Virus record (IMG/VR): IMGVR_UViG_3300033153_009133
Span: 1-37,573 of that record
Length of the DNA: 37,573 bases
Direction: 5' to 3' (one strand)
DNA from: a virus
In this document: positions 6,384 to 15,465 of the stretch, piece by piece
How the letters are laid out: each line of letters opens with the position of its first letter
Numbering within the stretch: position 1 is the stretch's first letter
Position numbers and translations under genes: made by a program
Notes under the pieces: generated by a model
What the model saw: the letters and a program-made list of their open reading frames with translations, nothing else
The model's database searches: none
What the model was told of the DNA's origin: nothing

Positions 6384-6389
6384 ATGACC

Positions 6390-6908
6390 ATGCGAGATGA
6401 CAAATTGGCAACATGGTTGTCCGAACAATTGAGAATGCGGTCATGGTCAGCACGAGAATTGGCTCGCCAGGCGGGGGTTTCTCACACAATAATCAATCAT
6501 ATCTTAGCGGAAACAAAGACTGCTACTGCGGATATGTGCATCAAAATCGCGAAGGCGCTAGGAGAGGAGCCTGAAATAGTATTGCGCATCGCCGGGAAAA
6601 TGCCTCGATTGCCACCAGAAGTTGAGGATGAACGGGAGTATGTGGCAATGTATCGCAAATTAGAACCGCGCCTACGCGATATGGTCAAAGCCAGCATACG
6701 AGGTCTATTAGGTCAATCCGTTACTATAACCCCATCTGTGCGAGAACGATCAATCCATTACGGCGATGATCCGCTAATACAAAAAATCGTAGCCAGGATC
6801 GAGCGATTATCCCTAGAGGATCTACATCGCTTGGATACCGTGTTGGATAAATTGGATCGCGAACAGAGTGGGATCGATCGTGCATCGGAGAGTTCAACAA
6901 TTACGTAG
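6390..6908 (+). CDS. CI-like HTH (XRE) repressor
   Basis: A 172-residue protein starting MRDDKLATWL at 6390; ATG 6384 overlaps the -10 and is less likely. The N-terminal helix-turn-helix is clear: SARELARQAGVSHTIINHIL (about 19-38) followed by TADMCIKIAKALG. There is no LexA/S24 autoprotease domain; instead a helical C-terminus (EYVAMYRKLEPRLRDMV and LSLEDLHRLDTVLDKL) could serve dimerisation. It faces the RHH gene across 114 bp with shared operators, so it most likely keeps the prophage silent. Without an S24 domain, induction would not follow the usual RecA-driven cleavage. Base composition is visibly more AT-rich than the virion genes. Confidence 0.85.
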   Translation: MRDDKLATWLSEQLRMRSWSARELARQAGVSHTIINHILAETKTATADMCIKIAKALGEEPEIVLRIAGKMPRLPPEVEDEREYVAMYRKLEPRLRDMVKASIRGLLGQSVTITPSVRERSIHYGDDPLIQKIVARIERLSLEDLHRLDTVLDKLDREQSGIDRASESSTIT

Positions 6909-10020: not shown

Positions 10021-12449
10021 CCGTCTACGCTCGCATATCCTTCGGTCCAGATCATGTGCGCCTCAATCGTCGGCGATCCGACCGTGTATACGAAACATGT
10101 GATCAGGTTGTCGCCTGGCTGGAGCGCGAACGATCCGAGATCGCTCCCCGTCAATACGGCCTCCGGTCGCTCGCCGAAAAATGACGAGACGATCGTCTTT
10201 TTCGCCAGATCCAGACGGATGGTCAGCCTCTCCTCATCCAGGAGATCGTATTTGAATTGCAACCCCTGGCCCGTCGTCTCGTTCCGTATCATGTAGAGCG
10301 ATGCGGAGGTACCGCCACTGCGATAGATCTCGATCCGCGGGTACGCGCGCGCCGTGCCGTCGCTCGTCACCGTCGCCGATCCGGCGAAATAGGCCGTGCC
10401 CGCCTGGTCGAATCCGATCCATACGTCGTAATTCGCCTCGATCACCGGGTCGCTCGTCGACACGAGCAACGCCTTCACGACGCTCGCGCTCGGCAGGCGG
10501 ATGTCCGCGCGCGCCCAGGCCGCTCCGTTCCACAGGGCCACGTTGTCCAGATCGATTGCGCCCGTCGAGTCGAAATCGCCCGCGATCCAGATATTGCCCA
10601 GGTCGTCCTCGGCCAAGGCGTAGACGATCCCTGCGCCGCCGCCAGAGAGCACGCCGCTCCCCAGCGCTTCGACCGCGCCGTTCCGATAGATCCCTACGCC
10701 GTTACAGGTCACGTACATAATATCACCCAGGTCACCACCGAAAACGACACGGCCATCACTCAATACAGCCAGCGTGTAGATAGGGCCAGTCGTTGCAGTG
10801 CCTGATGTACCGTTATATAATAGCGTTTGCCACGCACTGCCATCGTATGAGCTGAGACGTATCTTTCCTAGATAATAGCTATCACGACCGCCAGCATATA
10901 GAGTCCCGTCACGACCAAAACCAATCGCATACACTTTGTTGAAGTTCGGTGGCGCCAGGTCCGACCACGCCGATCCGGTCCATTTGTAGACCGACGTGCC
11001 CGATGCGACATAGATCGTATCGTCCCAGTAAGCGATCGAGTACACGGTTGCAGTCAATCCGCCGCCCACCGCCGAGACCGTGCTGCCATCCCACTGCGCG
11101 ACATAGTCCGCGTTCGCGTCGCCGCCGGCGTTCGTGAACTCGCCGCCAAACACCACCGTACCGTCGGGCAGGACCAGAATATCGCGCACGCTCCCGTTCA
11201 GCGCCGCGATCGCCGAATACGTGCCGTTCGCCTTGTGATAGCGCACGATGTAATCCGCGTTCGCGTCGCCGTCCCAATTCTCGAACAGCCCGCCGCTGTA
11301 GACGTAGGTCGCGTCCTCGGCCAGCGCATATACAGTGATCCCCCCGCCCAGATCCGTCACCGAGCTGGGCGGTCCCAGCGGGTCCCATTGCCCGCTTGAT
11401 TTCAGCCGCGCCGCAATGTACCGCAGCGTCGCGCTGTCGCTCGTGTCCAACGCTACTGCGCGCTCTCCGACCGCATACCAATGCGGATCCTCGGCCAGAA
11501 ACTGGATCGCCACATCGCGCTCCAGGAAACCATCTTGCGCCCTCCGGCGCAGCTCCAGGCCGCCGCGATAGTGCGCCGCGATCTGTTTTGTCGTCGTGGC
11601 GCCGGTGTAGCGCAGCCGGACCGGCTGCGTGCCAGGCACGGCGTGCGGATGCAGGACCGCGATCAGGCTCTCGCGCTTGTCATGCAGATCGCTCATCGAG
11701 CTGCCCACGAATCGGCCTGGGATCGCGAATTGCCGCGCTCGCGCCTTGGCTCCCGCCAGCACCGCGCCCGGCAACAATGCCAGCTCCTGTACATCGAGCT
11801 CGATCGGCGGCATGCCCGTTCCGACCTGGCCCTCGGGATAGAAGCCATAGTCCTCCAGATCGTACACCCGCCCGCCCGCGCGGCTCTGAGCGCTGCGCGT
11901 CGAGGTGCTGTTGTGCTCCGCGCCGTTCCACTCGCAGCCATTCTGATCGCCATCGATGTGCGTCGTCTCGTGGTCCGCCGCCACGCAATCGGCGGCATCG
12001 ATGTACACATACACCCCGACGGTCGGGGTCCCGGTCGCGCGGACCAGCAGGTAGCCGAACAGACCGCCTGCGTCTGGCGTCCCCGTCACCGAGACCCGCT
12101 GCCACTGGTCGGTCTTGGTCATGTCGGCGCGGACCGGTCCGCCGCCACTGATGCCGGTGAAACTCGCGAACGAGATCCGCACATCCATGCCGTCGAACGA
12201 ACTGGGGATGTACAGCCAGACCGAGAACGTGTGCGCGGTCGCCGTCAGCGTGATCCCATAGTACGCGATGTTGGTGTGGTTCTGGTAGGTGCATTTGAGC
12301 GAATACACACCGAACTTCGATTGCTCCGAGCTGCGCGCGATTGTGTTGGTGCCATCTGCCGCCCACCCAGTCGTCCCCCGCTCAAAGCTCGGATTCTCGA
12401 TCAAGTTCGTCGCCGCCTCGGGCACGATCAACTGCCAAAAACTGCTCAT
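10017..12449 (-). CDS. distal tail protein with carbohydrate-binding and beta-propeller domains
   Basis: An 810-residue protein. Residues 1-170 form a CBM-like jelly roll (the start LIENPSFERGTTGW is the classic N-FEXGXXGW entry). Residues about 195-340 match the distal-tail (Dit) core: MPPIELDVQELALLPG, GRFVGSSMSDLHDKRESLIAVLHP, VRLRYTG, LAEDPHWY. An inserted region (about 345-690) repeats D-G-x-V-V/Y-x-G-G-x-F and VYALAED-like strands (TVVFGGEFTNAGGDANADYV), a beta-propeller. The last 120 residues close with the siphovirus tail C-terminal beta sandwich (PGDNLITCFVYT). It sits between tape measure and hub, the Dit position. The extra domains make it an evolved Dit that probably binds host surface glycans (inference). 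Confidence 0.85.
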   Translation of the reverse strand: MSSFWQLIVPEAATNLIENPSFERGTTGWAADGTNTIARSSEQSKFGVYSLKCTYQNHTNIAYYGITLTATAHTFSVWLYIPSSFDGMDVRISFASFTGISGGGPVRADMTKTDQWQRVSVTGTPDAGGLFGYLLVRATGTPTVGVYVYIDAADCVAADHETTHIDGDQNGCEWNGAEHNSTSTRSAQSRAGGRVYDLEDYGFYPEGQVGTGMPPIELDVQELALLPGAVLAGAKARARQFAIPGRFVGSSMSDLHDKRESLIAVLHPHAVPGTQPVRLRYTGATTTKQIAAHYRGGLELRRRAQDGFLERDVAIQFLAEDPHWYAVGERAVALDTSDSATLRYIAARLKSSGQWDPLGPPSSVTDLGGGITVYALAEDATYVYSGGLFENWDGDANADYIVRYHKANGTYSAIAALNGSVRDILVLPDGTVVFGGEFTNAGGDANADYVAQWDGSTVSAVGGGLTATVYSIAYWDDTIYVASGTSVYKWTGSAWSDLAPPNFNKVYAIGFGRDGTLYAGGRDSYYLGKIRLSSYDGSAWQTLLYNGTSGTATTGPIYTLAVLSDGRVVFGGDLGDIMYVTCNGVGIYRNGAVEALGSGVLSGGGAGIVYALAEDDLGNIWIAGDFDSTGAIDLDNVALWNGAAWARADIRLPSASVVKALLVSTSDPVIEANYDVWIGFDQAGTAYFAGSATVTSDGTARAYPRIEIYRSGGTSASLYMIRNETTGQGLQFKYDLLDEERLTIRLDLAKKTIVSSFFGERPEAVLTGSDLGSFALQPGDNLITCFVYTVGSPTIEAHMIWTEGYASVDG

Positions 12450-14140
12450 CCGCCCCCTCCGTAAAAGCTGCCCGCCAGATAGACGTCATCCTCCGGAATG
12501 TTGCCCATCCCGTAATTGTTGATCGTCACGTTCGTATTCACCGTGCTCTGCGGCACGTTCGACGGGCGCCCGGGCAATTCGGGTCGGGGCGCGGGCCGCG
12601 GCTGATATACGTCGCTCGGCAGGTAGCCGGTCGCCCCCTGGTACTCGACCCGCACGCGGATCACTTTTTCGCTCGGCAGCGCATCGATGGCCTGTTTGAG
12701 CAGTTCCGCCTGCAGCGTCTCCCGCTCCGTGCGCTGGATCAGCGAGGCCAGCGATTCGTCGAACTCGCCCGCCTTGACGGTCCCATCCGCAAACCGCTCG
12801 ACCAGATCGAACAGCCCTTCCTGCAGCGCCAGGCTTTTTTCGTCCGCCAGGCCAAATGCGAGTTGCGTCTCCTGTACGGCTTGCGAGAACTCTGCCGTCG
12901 TGATCGTCCCCTTGTCCAGCTCCTCGCGCAGCATCGAGATCGCGGCTTCGGCAATCTGCGCGTCGCTCGCGCCTTTGAGCTGCTGCGCCAGCTCGGCCGC
13001 TGCGGTGGCCTGGTCGCGGAATATCGCCGCCAGGTCCGGCGCGGCCGTCGCCGCCGCGCTCATCGCCGCCTCCAGCCGCTCTTCCTCCTGGATCACCGCC
13101 TCCATCGACAAATCAAGCGCATCGAACCCGTCCGCGCTCTCTTCCGCCGCCGATTTCACCATCGGAAGCGCCGTCGTGTGCATGTAGCGCAGTTGCTCGT
13201 TTGCGGTTTTCGTCTCGTCGATCACCGCCAGGCGCACGGTGCTGCGGAAACGTTGCATCGCATCCTGCGCCGCCTTGACCGGCCCCTCCAGGTAGAGCGA
13301 CTGCTTGAACTCTTGCATCGCGTTCGTGGTCGCGAATCCCAGCGTCCATACCTGCCGCAGGTAATCCGGCAGGAGGCGCAGCCGCTCCGTGAATTTGTCC
13401 ACGTTCAGCACGTCGTCCACCATCTCGGCCGCGAATTCCGCCGTGCCCGCCTTGGCGTCCGCGAACGCCGCCTCCAATTTCCCGATCTTGGTCGTCAGTT
13501 CTTCGCTCGTGTCGCCCAATTTGCCCAGCGATTTGCGTCCCTCCTCCAGGACCGCCAGCTTGAATGCCTGGTCCAGGTCATACCCCGCTTTTTTCAACTC
13601 CTCCACACGTTCACGCACGCGCGCGCTGGACATCCCAAAGTTGTCCAACCTGGGGATGCTGCGATTGGCCAACAGCGCGCTGAAATCCGCGATCCGGTTC
13701 CCCGCCGCCTGCGTCTGATCGCCCAGCTTGATCGCGACCGCGGCCATGATCTCCATCTCGTCCGCGTTGTCGACCAGGCCCATCTGCAACATTTTCGTTG
13801 CGCCCTGCATCGCGCTCATCCGGTCGACCGTGTTGTCGCTCGCCCGGGCGAACGCATCCAGGTAGGCGCGCGCCTGATCCGTCCCTCCCGCGAACGCCTC
13901 GAACCGGTGTCGCGCCGTCTGCACCTGCGCGCCGAGCTTGACGAACTCGACCGCCGCCTGCGCGCTCTTGAGCGCCCCCATCGCGCTCACCGCCAGCCGC
14001 GCGGCTTTGACCAATCCGCCCAACTGGCTCCCGCTCTTCTTGGCGCCCTCGCCCAGGTTCTCGATCTCTTTGCCTGCCCCTTTGACCGCCTGGACGTTGC
14101 CCTTGCTGTCGACGAACACCTCCAGGGTAGCCCGTGGCAT
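12446..14140 (-). CDS. tape measure protein
   Basis: A 564-residue protein. ATG 14140 (MPRATLEVFVDSKGN) has GAAGGAGGG upstream. It opens with a short beta segment that is usual for tape measures (ATLEVFVDSKGNVQAVKGAGKEI), then a long Ala-rich helical region with predicted TM-like LGGLVKAARLAVSAMGAL (about 42-59). The body holds the conserved early motif of small siphovirus tape measures (ASDNTVDRMSAMQGATKML, ALLANRSIPRLDNFGMS) and long coiled coils to residue about 510. It is followed by a Gly/Pro-rich C-terminus. It sets tail length; the short size implies a relatively short flexible tail. Confidence 0.9.
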   Translation of the reverse strand: MPRATLEVFVDSKGNVQAVKGAGKEIENLGEGAKKSGSQLGGLVKAARLAVSAMGALKSAQAAVEFVKLGAQVQTARHRFEAFAGGTDQARAYLDAFARASDNTVDRMSAMQGATKMLQMGLVDNADEMEIMAAVAIKLGDQTQAAGNRIADFSALLANRSIPRLDNFGMSSARVRERVEELKKAGYDLDQAFKLAVLEEGRKSLGKLGDTSEELTTKIGKLEAAFADAKAGTAEFAAEMVDDVLNVDKFTERLRLLPDYLRQVWTLGFATTNAMQEFKQSLYLEGPVKAAQDAMQRFRSTVRLAVIDETKTANEQLRYMHTTALPMVKSAAEESADGFDALDLSMEAVIQEEERLEAAMSAAATAAPDLAAIFRDQATAAAELAQQLKGASDAQIAEAAISMLREELDKGTITTAEFSQAVQETQLAFGLADEKSLALQEGLFDLVERFADGTVKAGEFDESLASLIQRTERETLQAELLKQAIDALPSEKVIRVRVEYQGATGYLPSDVYQPRPAPRPELPGRPSNVPQSTVNTNVTINNYGMGNIPEDDVYLAGSFYGGGG

Positions 14141-14218
14141 CGTCCCTCCTTCAATGCAAAAGCGAGGACGTCCATCCATCGGATGGTCCGTCCCCGCTTC
14201 CCGCCGTGCGCGTCGCGA

Positions 14219-14665
14219 CTAGATTGTGGCCAGGAATTCGCGCGCCCTGCGCGCCATTCGGTACGCGCGATCGATCAGCGCCGCGTCGTCCCCCTCCGCG
14301 GGATGGTCCGGCGGCACCGGGCTCCAGCCGCAGAGCGTGCAGTACAGCGGTCTCAGGATCTCCAGCCAATCCATGAGCCTGCCTTTCGACAGCTCCCCGC
14401 GCACCCGCCCCTCGATCTCTTCCAGCGCTTCGTAAACCGCGCTCGCCGCCCGGAGCGCCCCTGGCGTCGCGTACGGCCCATAGATCGAGGTCAGGTACTC
14501 CCGGATCTCCGAGTTCACCTCCGGGCGCCCTTCCGGGGCGTCCTCCGGCTCCTCGTCGTCCAACCCCATCGCGTCGACGACCGAGAGATGTCTCCCCGCC
14601 TGGCCGACCTGCGCGATCTCGATCAACCGCGCTGCGATCTCCAACAACTCGTCCGCCCGATCCAT
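14219..14665 (-). CDS. hypothetical tail-region protein
   Basis: A 148-residue protein between the tail chaperones and the tape measure. The start is ATG 14665 (MDRADELLEIAARLIE); its ribosome site GGAG lies within GGAGTCGGAAAC, which is complementary to the loop strand of the upstream RNA (14721-14731). The N-terminal helix is followed by an acidic linker (LDDEEPEDAPEG), then a helical domain (YLTSIYGPYATPGALRAAS, ALEEIEGRVRGELSKGRLMDWLEILRPLY). I recognise no family. The position suggests a tail assembly role. Its translation may be controlled by the RNA element immediately upstream. Confidence 0.7.
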   Translation of the reverse strand: MDRADELLEIAARLIEIAQVGQAGRHLSVVDAMGLDDEEPEDAPEGRPEVNSEIREYLTSIYGPYATPGALRAASAVYEALEEIEGRVRGELSKGRLMDWLEILRPLYCTLCGWSPVPPDHPAEGDDAALIDRAYRMARRAREFLATI

Positions 14666-14690
14666 GTTTCCGACTCCTTTCGGTGCTCGA

Positions 14691-14840
14691 CAAAAGCCCG
14701 CATTGGCGCGTGCACCTGGCGGAGTCGGAAAACTCTTTACCGGGGGGTACGCCAATGCGGGCCTTTGCCCGCAAAACCTCGCTTTCGCTTTGCGGCCAGG
14801 CACAGTTCCCCCGCGCGTATTCCCTTGAGTTTTCCGACTC
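14691..14840 (-). ncRNA. structured RNA / riboregulator candidate with pseudoknot
   Basis: From the predicted start at 14840 the RNA begins GAGTCGGAAAACTC (A5', 14840-14827). A hairpin GCCT..CCGCAAA / TTTTGCGG..AGGC with a GCGAAAGC tip follows. Next come B5' GCCCGCATTGGCG (14762-14750), A3' GAGTTTTCCGACTC (14735-14722) and B3' CGCCAATGCGGGC (14708-14696), then TTTT. A5':A3' pairs over 14 bp and B5':B3' over 13 bp. The order A-B-A-B makes a pseudoknot, and B plus TTTT is also an intrinsic terminator. A3' can instead pair with the next gene's ribosome site. The structure is seen in sequence; function is inferred. Confidence 0.75.
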
Positions 14841-14847
14841 GATCCTC

Positions 14848-14876
14848 ATGATATCACAACCTGGCGCGGATGTCAA
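14848..14876 (-). promoter_or_regulatory. near-consensus sigma-70 promoter for the RNA element and tail genes
   Basis: On the - strand TTGACA (14876-14871), a 17-bp spacer, TATCAT (14853-14848). The start is predicted at about 14840, the first base of the A5' arm. It begins just 9 nt after the chaperone stop codon, an unusual place for a strong promoter inside a virion operon. Confidence 0.8.
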
Positions 14877-14884
14877 GAGCGTTT

Positions 14885-15416
14885 CTACCGTCCTCCGGCC
14901 ACGAGCGCCGCCTTTTTCATCCACAGGATCACGTCCTCCACCACCGCCGCCGGGGTTTCGCACAACTCCCGCCAGCTCCAGCCCATCCAGCGCATCACTG
15001 CCAGCGGGGCCATGCTCCCCGGCAATCTTTCCTTCCGCAGCGCGATCTCGAGCTCCTCTTCAAAACCCGGCCTGCTCCTCGGCAGACCTCCTCTCGTTCA
15101 ACTCGCGGATCGCCTGATAGATGAAATCGCCGTCCTGGGCCGACAGCGCCCGGATTCGCTCCGGCGTGCAGGGTACCCGCTCCCCCTCCGCGTCGCGCAG
15201 CGTCCATTCGACGATCCCGCGCTCCATCCGCGCCGCGTGCCAGTCGGCGCGGTTCACCTGCACCCGCGCCCCGCCCTCGTCGTCCGGCACGATCTCGGTC
15301 GCCTGCTCTGAGATCACCTGTTCGTCGTACCAGGTGAACCGCCGGACCGTGACGCTCTCGCCCTCCTCCCACCACGGCGCGTGGATCGTCCGTTGCTCCT
15401 CGATGAAATGTGCCAT
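14885..15416 (-). CDS. tail assembly chaperone gpG-gpT fusion made by frameshift
   Basis: The second tail assembly chaperone lies in the frame offset from the 118-residue gpG-like protein. Reading FEEELEIALRKE..APLAVMRWMGWSWRELCE..VVEDVILWMKK to TAG 14885 adds 59 residues of good helical protein with no start codon or ribosome site of its own at the junction. The junction is GGG TTT TGA A (15068-15059). A +1 slip on TTT at the weak UGA gives TTT GAA, the arrangement used by the release-factor-2 gene (CTT TGA C to TTT GAC). A -2 slip would give the same frame. Fused chaperones bind the tape measure during tail assembly; most phages use a -1 shift. Confidence 0.75.
15060..15416 (-). CDS. tail assembly chaperone gpG-like protein
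   Basis: A 118-residue protein. ATG 15416 (MAHFIEEQRTIHAPWW) has GGAGAGGG upstream. It starts with a beta-rich segment (ESVTVRRFTWYDEQVI), followed by helices and ends FIYQAIRELNERRSAEEQAGF at TGA 15060. Placement right after the major tail protein and before the tape measure, plus the overlapping second frame, identifies the first of the two tail chaperones. It is the product when no frameshift occurs. Confidence 0.8.
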   Translation of the reverse strand: MAHFIEEQRTIHAPWWEEGESVTVRRFTWYDEQVISEQATEIVPDDEGGARVQVNRADWHAARMERGIVEWTLRDAEGERVPCTPERIRALSAQDGDFIYQAIRELNERRSAEEQAGF

Positions 15417-15431
15417 TGACCCTCTCCTCAT

Positions 15432-15465
15432 AGACCCTAAGGGTTTTCTCGAACCCTTAGGGTCT
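15432..15465. repeat. ACCCTAAGGGT hairpin repeat, copy 1
   Basis: Inverted repeat AGACCCTAAGGGTT / AACCCTTAGGGTCT placed between the chaperone and major tail genes. A T-rich run follows on the + strand only. One of five near-identical copies in the window. Confidence 0.9.

Follow-up and report, generated by a model that had tools for sequence, protein, structure and literature searches.

The window, by which we mean the whole stretch of DNA analysed here, is a virus record of 37.6 kb (37,573 nucleotides) with its head and tail genes on the minus strand. A leader RNA and the gene for an orphan protein, P0001, have a tail-assembly-chaperone-like gene pair (15431 to about 14885) on one side and the probable tape-measure gene (12446-14179) on the other, where both labels were assigned from position and gene order, without family matches. 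The features of this region are listed below.

14848..14876, minus strand: promoter TTGACA-17-TATCAT with an extended -10 TG (promoter scan)
14827..14840, minus strand: A5', GAGTCGGAAAACTC, the first target copy at the predicted 5' end, like seqA / a1b1
14805..14812, minus strand: C5', GGGGGAAC, pairs with C3' in the pseudoknot form (from the sequence)
14769..14795, minus strand: local hairpin CCGCAAA...TTTGCGG between C5' and B5' (fold)
14749..14767, minus strand: B5' strand of the long B stem (repeat search, fold and covariation)
14742..14749, minus strand: C3', TACCCCCC, partner of C5' in the pseudoknot form or part of inner stem D in the rod form
14722..14735, minus strand: A3', GAGTTTTCCGACTC, candidate antisense (anti-SD) element, in the apical hairpin of the rod
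14691..14709, minus strand: B3' strand of the B stem, ending in ...GGGCTTTTG, a weak T-run (repeat search and fold)
14667..14677, minus strand: third A copy, GGAGTCGGAAA, over the Shine-Dalgarno (SD) sequence of the downstream gene, like seqC (sequence)
14219..14665, minus strand: P0001, an acidic orphan protein of 148 aa, the candidate regulated gene

All minus-strand elements named in the original prediction were recovered at their positions, including the TTGACA-17-TATCAT promoter and the 14-nt A arms. The promoter is the sole 11/12 match within 6 kb, two promoter-like sites being found as compared to 0.8 expected in shuffles, and the scan identified no promoter on the opposite strand at the RNA. 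The A arms (14840-14827 and 14735-14722) constitute a perfect 14-nt inverted repeat. Stem B is also present, although the 13 bp first given for it were too few: the arms at 14767-14750 and 14708-14691 show 94% complementarity over 18 nt, and 19 bp are formed when the segment is folded alone. The third A copy was correctly described as covering the SD of the next gene and as complementary to A3'; GGAGTCGGAAA overlaps the SD of the ATG at 14665, and A3' can pair either with A5' (14 bp) or with this SD copy (11 bp). The exact 10-mer GAGTCGGAAA occurs at three sites in the whole window, namely A5', A3' and the SD copy, and nowhere else. Helix C, GGGGG-A-AC / GU-A-CCCCC, is nested with A, and the alternative inner stem D is also present. 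For the whole leader, the z-score of the fold was -3.2 relative to shuffled sequences.

The RNA and P0001 look like an insert, because the genes flanking the same junction lie at most a few tens of bases apart in four related records (L002/L034, L033, L035 and L037). The relatives were retrieved via the terminase and then via the chaperone; a single-protein route had given none. A related prophage terminase, with 65% identity, is located in a Chloroflexi MAG (L067), which suggests, without proving it, that the host belongs to the phylum Chloroflexi. An HTH repressor-like gene in a divergent region (6384-6908, plus strand) is consistent with a temperate phage. Two further observations concern the chaperone-like gene (15060-15431, minus strand). 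It ends in ...GGG UUU UGA, and the +1 frame runs on into a T-like part (about 14885-15085); five relatives have ...F R in the first frame at the corresponding point, together with a similar overlapping frame. The pattern suggests a conserved programmed frameshift (+1 or -2) in the tail assembly chaperone. Directly before the ATG of the gene there is a perfect 15-bp hairpin, AGACCCTAAGGGTT...AACCCTTAGGGTCT (15432-15465), possibly a terminator or a start-site structure.

The same layout was identified in nine further cassettes from related phages, giving ten members in all. The layout scan looked for X ... rc(X) ... X beside an SD and a start codon, and returned nine distinct elements in the window and the viral loci, as compared to none in locally shuffled sequence. 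A covariance model built from these nine (R1) recovered the tenth member blind, in L012 with 46 bits, which the layout scan had missed. The ten members come from eight phage records, with L011 being a near-copy of L010, and the sampled phages are those returned by the terminase, chaperone and pattern searches. Each cassette consists of a promoter, the RNA and one small orphan gene, in some cases with a hairpin at the end. An extended -10 is located 6-11 nt before A5' in the other cassettes also (10/10).

The cassettes occupy several positions. L036 carries an insert of about 490 bp at the same junction as in the window, in the opposite orientation, with the same arrangement and a different A sequence. 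L036 and L049 represent the same insertion in two close phages; both adjoin the start of the tape-measure gene, with the chaperone on the other side where the sequence permits a check. In L005 and L013, the cassette lies between the terminase and portal genes and is antisense to both. The L005 and L036 cassettes can be aligned from about -62 to +424 relative to A5'. Two phages, G008 (L013 and L036) and G005 (both L010 elements), each contain two cassettes with differing A sequences, and the cassette genes of L010 and G008 are related. The type-1 cassettes (L005, L010, L013, L036 and L049) are closed by an inverted repeat, a possible terminator; no such terminal repeat was identified after P0001.

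The cargo proteins, including P0001, gave no family match and are all encoded by small genes; recognisable relationships, at 27–28%, were restricted to the L005-type and L010-type proteins. The idea of a tail gene as the target was not borne out, in that P0001 matches no family and the slot is empty or holds another small gene in relatives. Single-protein scans of viral contigs with P0001 and P0002 returned nothing, as did a scan of genome contigs and annotated phages with P0001. The single-sequence structure of P0001 was all-helical at low confidence, and with a pLDDT of 51 the model was too weak to be used for a structure search. A type III toxin-antitoxin system (ToxIN) was considered and disfavoured, the RNA being a single unit rather than a tandem array and the cargo being without a family match. 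In L015 (464-1095) and L018 (2192-2600), the RNA is found in a similar gene neighbourhood, but the directly following gene differs, which suggests exchange of cargo behind a conserved leader.

The RNA itself is conserved as structure. For helices A and B, 98.5% of the cells in the ten-member alignment are paired and 13 pairs show double changes, although independent events are fewer than cells since some of the aligned sequences are close relatives. None of 500 shuffles reached the covariation values of A and B, and pairing fell to 28–45% when the partners were slid. The covariation check that the original prediction called for was thus passed in homologues, and the proposed A/B pseudoknot is conserved, with compensatory changes, in the nine related cassettes. 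Helix C is present, with differing sequences, in the nine members that were segmented by hand, which makes the A+C/B topology consistent among them. When folded alone, the central B5'-B3' segments (68–77 nt; about 77 nt in the window) gave a rod in all ten members, with A3' displayed in an apical hairpin closed by GAG/CTC; the probability of this hairpin was near 1 in nine members and lower in L018. Stem D rests on ten separate folds, as inconsistent alignment in that part prevented formal scoring. Stem B is common to the rod and pseudoknot forms, which exclude each other at C3' because this strand pairs either with C5' or inside the rod.

The A core is hypervariable, yet changes in the 5' copy are accompanied by matching changes in the inverted and SD copies. 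In nine of the ten members, A3' and the SD copy are fully Watson-Crick paired over 9–10 bp even though the cores differ, the one core shared among these nine being that of L036 and L049. The main inconsistency is the tenth member, L012, in which the SD copy fits only partly (-5.9 kcal/mol). The computed energies of the SD:A3' duplex ranged from -16.7 to -20.4 kcal/mol within the nine cassettes, as compared to -5.3 to -9.4 kcal/mol when the cassettes of one phage were crossed and mostly -5 to -12 kcal/mol for crosses of cassettes overall. The window and L018 are an exception, in that their A sequences are nearly interchangeable (-17.8 and -12.8 kcal/mol), but the two are located in different phages. 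Where two close relatives have different A sequences, 6/18 core positions are changed as compared to 2–8/137 elsewhere in the RNA; because the three copies are coupled, this amounts to two independent positions in triplicate, and Fisher values overstate the difference. In cis, the A5':A3' duplex (-21 to -28 kcal/mol) is stronger than SD:A3', and A5' is transcribed first. Since each core is its own and is matched in three copies, co-resident cassettes would not be expected to silence each other, and each switch probably silences only its own gene. The layout, the covariation of A and B, the three-fold matching and variability of A, the presence or absence of the cassette and the P4 topology discussed below were all obtained by comparative sequence analysis, with orthogonality as a prediction from it.

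We favour, with reasonable confidence, the reading that the RNA is a self-silencing leader in a mobile one-gene phage cassette (a moron) that works like P4 CI and P1 C4. The steps that we infer comprise SD blocking, a rod/pseudoknot switch, processing and action in trans, together with the biological role. A sigma70-type promoter would produce a transcript beginning with A5', of which the central segment of about 77 nt, from B5' to B3', may fold into a rod composed of stem B, stem D and the apical hairpin displaying A3'. Pairing of A3' with the SD copy would block ribosome binding. In the intact transcript, A5' would instead capture A3', giving a pseudoknot of A and C with B, and the SD would be spared. 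Processing may then free the rod from A5', so that it acts in trans on sibling transcripts, with the A core serving as a private address that is specific to each cassette. Because A5':A3' is the stronger duplex and forms first, the default could be an open SD, with A5' on A3', rather than one silenced by the rod in trans.

A pure switch in cis would use much of the same machinery: the nascent A5' captures A3' and leaves the SD open until a signal, a protein or 5' processing releases A3' to mask it. The A+C/B pseudoknot conserved in the layout, the early synthesis and stronger binding of A5', and the choice of C3' between C5' and stem D all agree with such a device, for which neither the hypervariability of the core nor the orthogonality between the cassettes of one phage has an obvious use; no conserved ligand pocket is visible besides the helices either, and we regard a switch of this kind as rather unlikely. 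Stem B as a conserved intrinsic terminator, part of the original prediction, would make the leader a transcription attenuator in which A5':A3' influences B and thereby read-through into P0001. The sequence CTTTTG or CCTTTG does follow B3' in the window, L015, L018 and L012, and a hairpin-GGGCYTTTGTCG-AAAGGAG motif is also found before genes in other phage contigs. However, the T-run is missing in six of the ten members, and the TTTT noted after B3' in the window, although present, is followed by G and is weak. A simple terminator scan does not list B, and A is not obviously an antiterminator since A and B can coexist. Attenuation thus appears improbable as an explanation of the family; stem B may terminate transcription in the four members that have a short T-run, but this is no family feature.

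Action on messages of the host or of other phage genes is a further alternative, in which the RNA is a stand-alone phage sRNA that uses A3' as an anti-SD element and regulates its own gene incidentally through the SD copy. A rod with an exposed anti-SD loop and variable loops would suit different targets, and a similar proposal has been made for C4-like sRNAs of Acinetobacter (PMC5320573). The window phage, however, contains no further exact site, which also leaves the suggested action on other transcripts with GAGTCGG unsupported in this phage, and the SD copy tracks A in nine of the ten cassettes, which argues that the adjacent gene is the constrained target. We consider a stand-alone sRNA very unlikely. 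Least credible of all is a role of the A copies as operators bound by a repressor at the DNA level, in which case RNA pairing would be a by-product of their inversion. Operator arrays can be inverted and one copy is located at the transcription start, but because the cores differ between cassettes, each would need a repressor of its own. Moreover, the third copy never occurs apart from the SD, and covariation or conservation at the RNA level extends to helices B and C and to the rod, the covariation of B being inexplicable from operators.

Searches beyond the family were largely negative. No direct DNA similarity to the RNA was found in phages and plasmids. In a search of 400 genomes from the phylum to which the L067 host MAG belongs, the best match of R1 was only 24 bits over 68 nt, which is not convincing, and model R2 returned nothing at E<=0.01. 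We attributed the matches of an exact-seed scan in L067, L074, L096 and L100 to repeats or chance. In L059-L066 we observed a recurring phage intergenic motif, a GC-rich hairpin followed by GGGCYTTTGTCG and then AAAGGAG before a gene; these matches were mostly other terminator-like hairpins without the triple layout and were set aside. The B stem of the window, L015 and L018 ends in the same GGGCYTTTGTCG-type tail.

It is possible, as a tentative extension of the self-silencing reading, that the cassettes form an unrecognised class of mobile, address-coded RNA elements, in which a three-copy barcode diversifies by coordinated change to provide self/non-self recognition at the RNA level; each cassette would then silence no copies but those sharing its address, such as one that arrives with a phage carrying the same cassette. 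On the self-silencing reading itself, the antisense logic of C4 and CI, described in proteobacterial phages and satellites, would extend to phages related to a Chloroflexota prophage, in a compact RNA that current RNA libraries miss. Because its three copies are coupled, the diversification of RNA specificity where pairing is all or none could be followed in an unusually clean natural setting. Its natural variants, in some cases two per phage, are candidate address-coded translational silencers and mark small accessory genes worth study.

Pseudoknots that open an SD are found in the antisense systems of plasmids. In those of the IncI/IncB repZ type, the pseudoknot opens the SD of the initiator gene, and the antisense RNA is made from the opposite strand. 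The cassettes resemble them in their complementary, variable hairpin loops and in a pseudoknot that would free the SD. A second point of comparison is IsrK / seqA RNA (RF01394), which like the cassette RNA is a 5' leader of a prophage operon carrying the upstream target copy; the cassette RNA has no Rfam match, whereas IsrK is both mRNA and sRNA of the multi-gene Gifsy-1 operon (PMC4825925).

The closest likeness is to C4/CI of P4, P1 and P7 (RF01695), in which the antisense RNA and the regulated gene also share a promoter and the antisense is embedded in the leader (PMC4825925, PMC5320573, PMC2864571). As in c4-a1b1 and seqA, one target copy lies upstream near the start and another downstream over the RBS, and P4 CI has been reported to pair with seqA on its upstream side and seqC on its downstream side (PMC4825925). 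As a positive control, the same kind of scan on P4 recovered X ... rc(X) ... X-over-SD at seqA/seqB/seqC, with TTCACAGG near the promoter, its complement in CI RNA and TTCACAGGAGG over the next SD. Among the cassettes, the antisense is complementary to the RBS of the co-transcribed gene in nine members, and poorly so in the tenth, while the upstream copy near the transcript start is present in all ten. C4 has been reported to be released by RNase P as an RNA of about 77 nt; its loops cover the RBS and determine specificity, P1 and P7 differing by 4 nt (PMC5320573). A stem-loop RNA of about 77 nt with a short variable loop that sets specificity, in the cassettes by prediction, is common to both systems, and the rod length of 68–77 nt fits a mature, processed RNA of about 70–80 nt of this type.

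The original prediction knew of no described RNA family with this layout. This is correct with respect to Rfam, since neither the window nor the member loci matched any of 4227 models, riboswitch and leader families included, but the layout is that of the P4 CI and P1 C4 systems. Rfam places C4 (74.9 bits) and isrK in P4, whereas the C4 model did not match the window, even with the threshold relaxed to E<=10, or any of eight loci that contain the other members, and R2 gave no hit in P4. Membership of the Rfam C4 family is ruled out by this lack of a match in either direction together with the single-rod fold. C4 RNA has three stem-loops with separate a' and b' loops (PMC5320573), in contrast to the cassette rod, in which one apical hairpin would combine the anti-SD and specificity functions. 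The cassettes further differ in retaining the A+C/B pseudoknot potential and in being one-gene units, of which some phages carry two; the phages concerned are related to a Chloroflexota prophage. The likeness to C4 may reflect either common ancestry or convergence. Because the arrangement is that of P4 and the behaviour of CI and C4 has been published, the rod may be taken as a CI/C4-like antisense on its own leader with the variable core as its address. Thus, the best reading is that the RNA represents an unrecognised, sequence-unrelated C4/CI-like antisense leader, predicted to mask the SD of its own gene.
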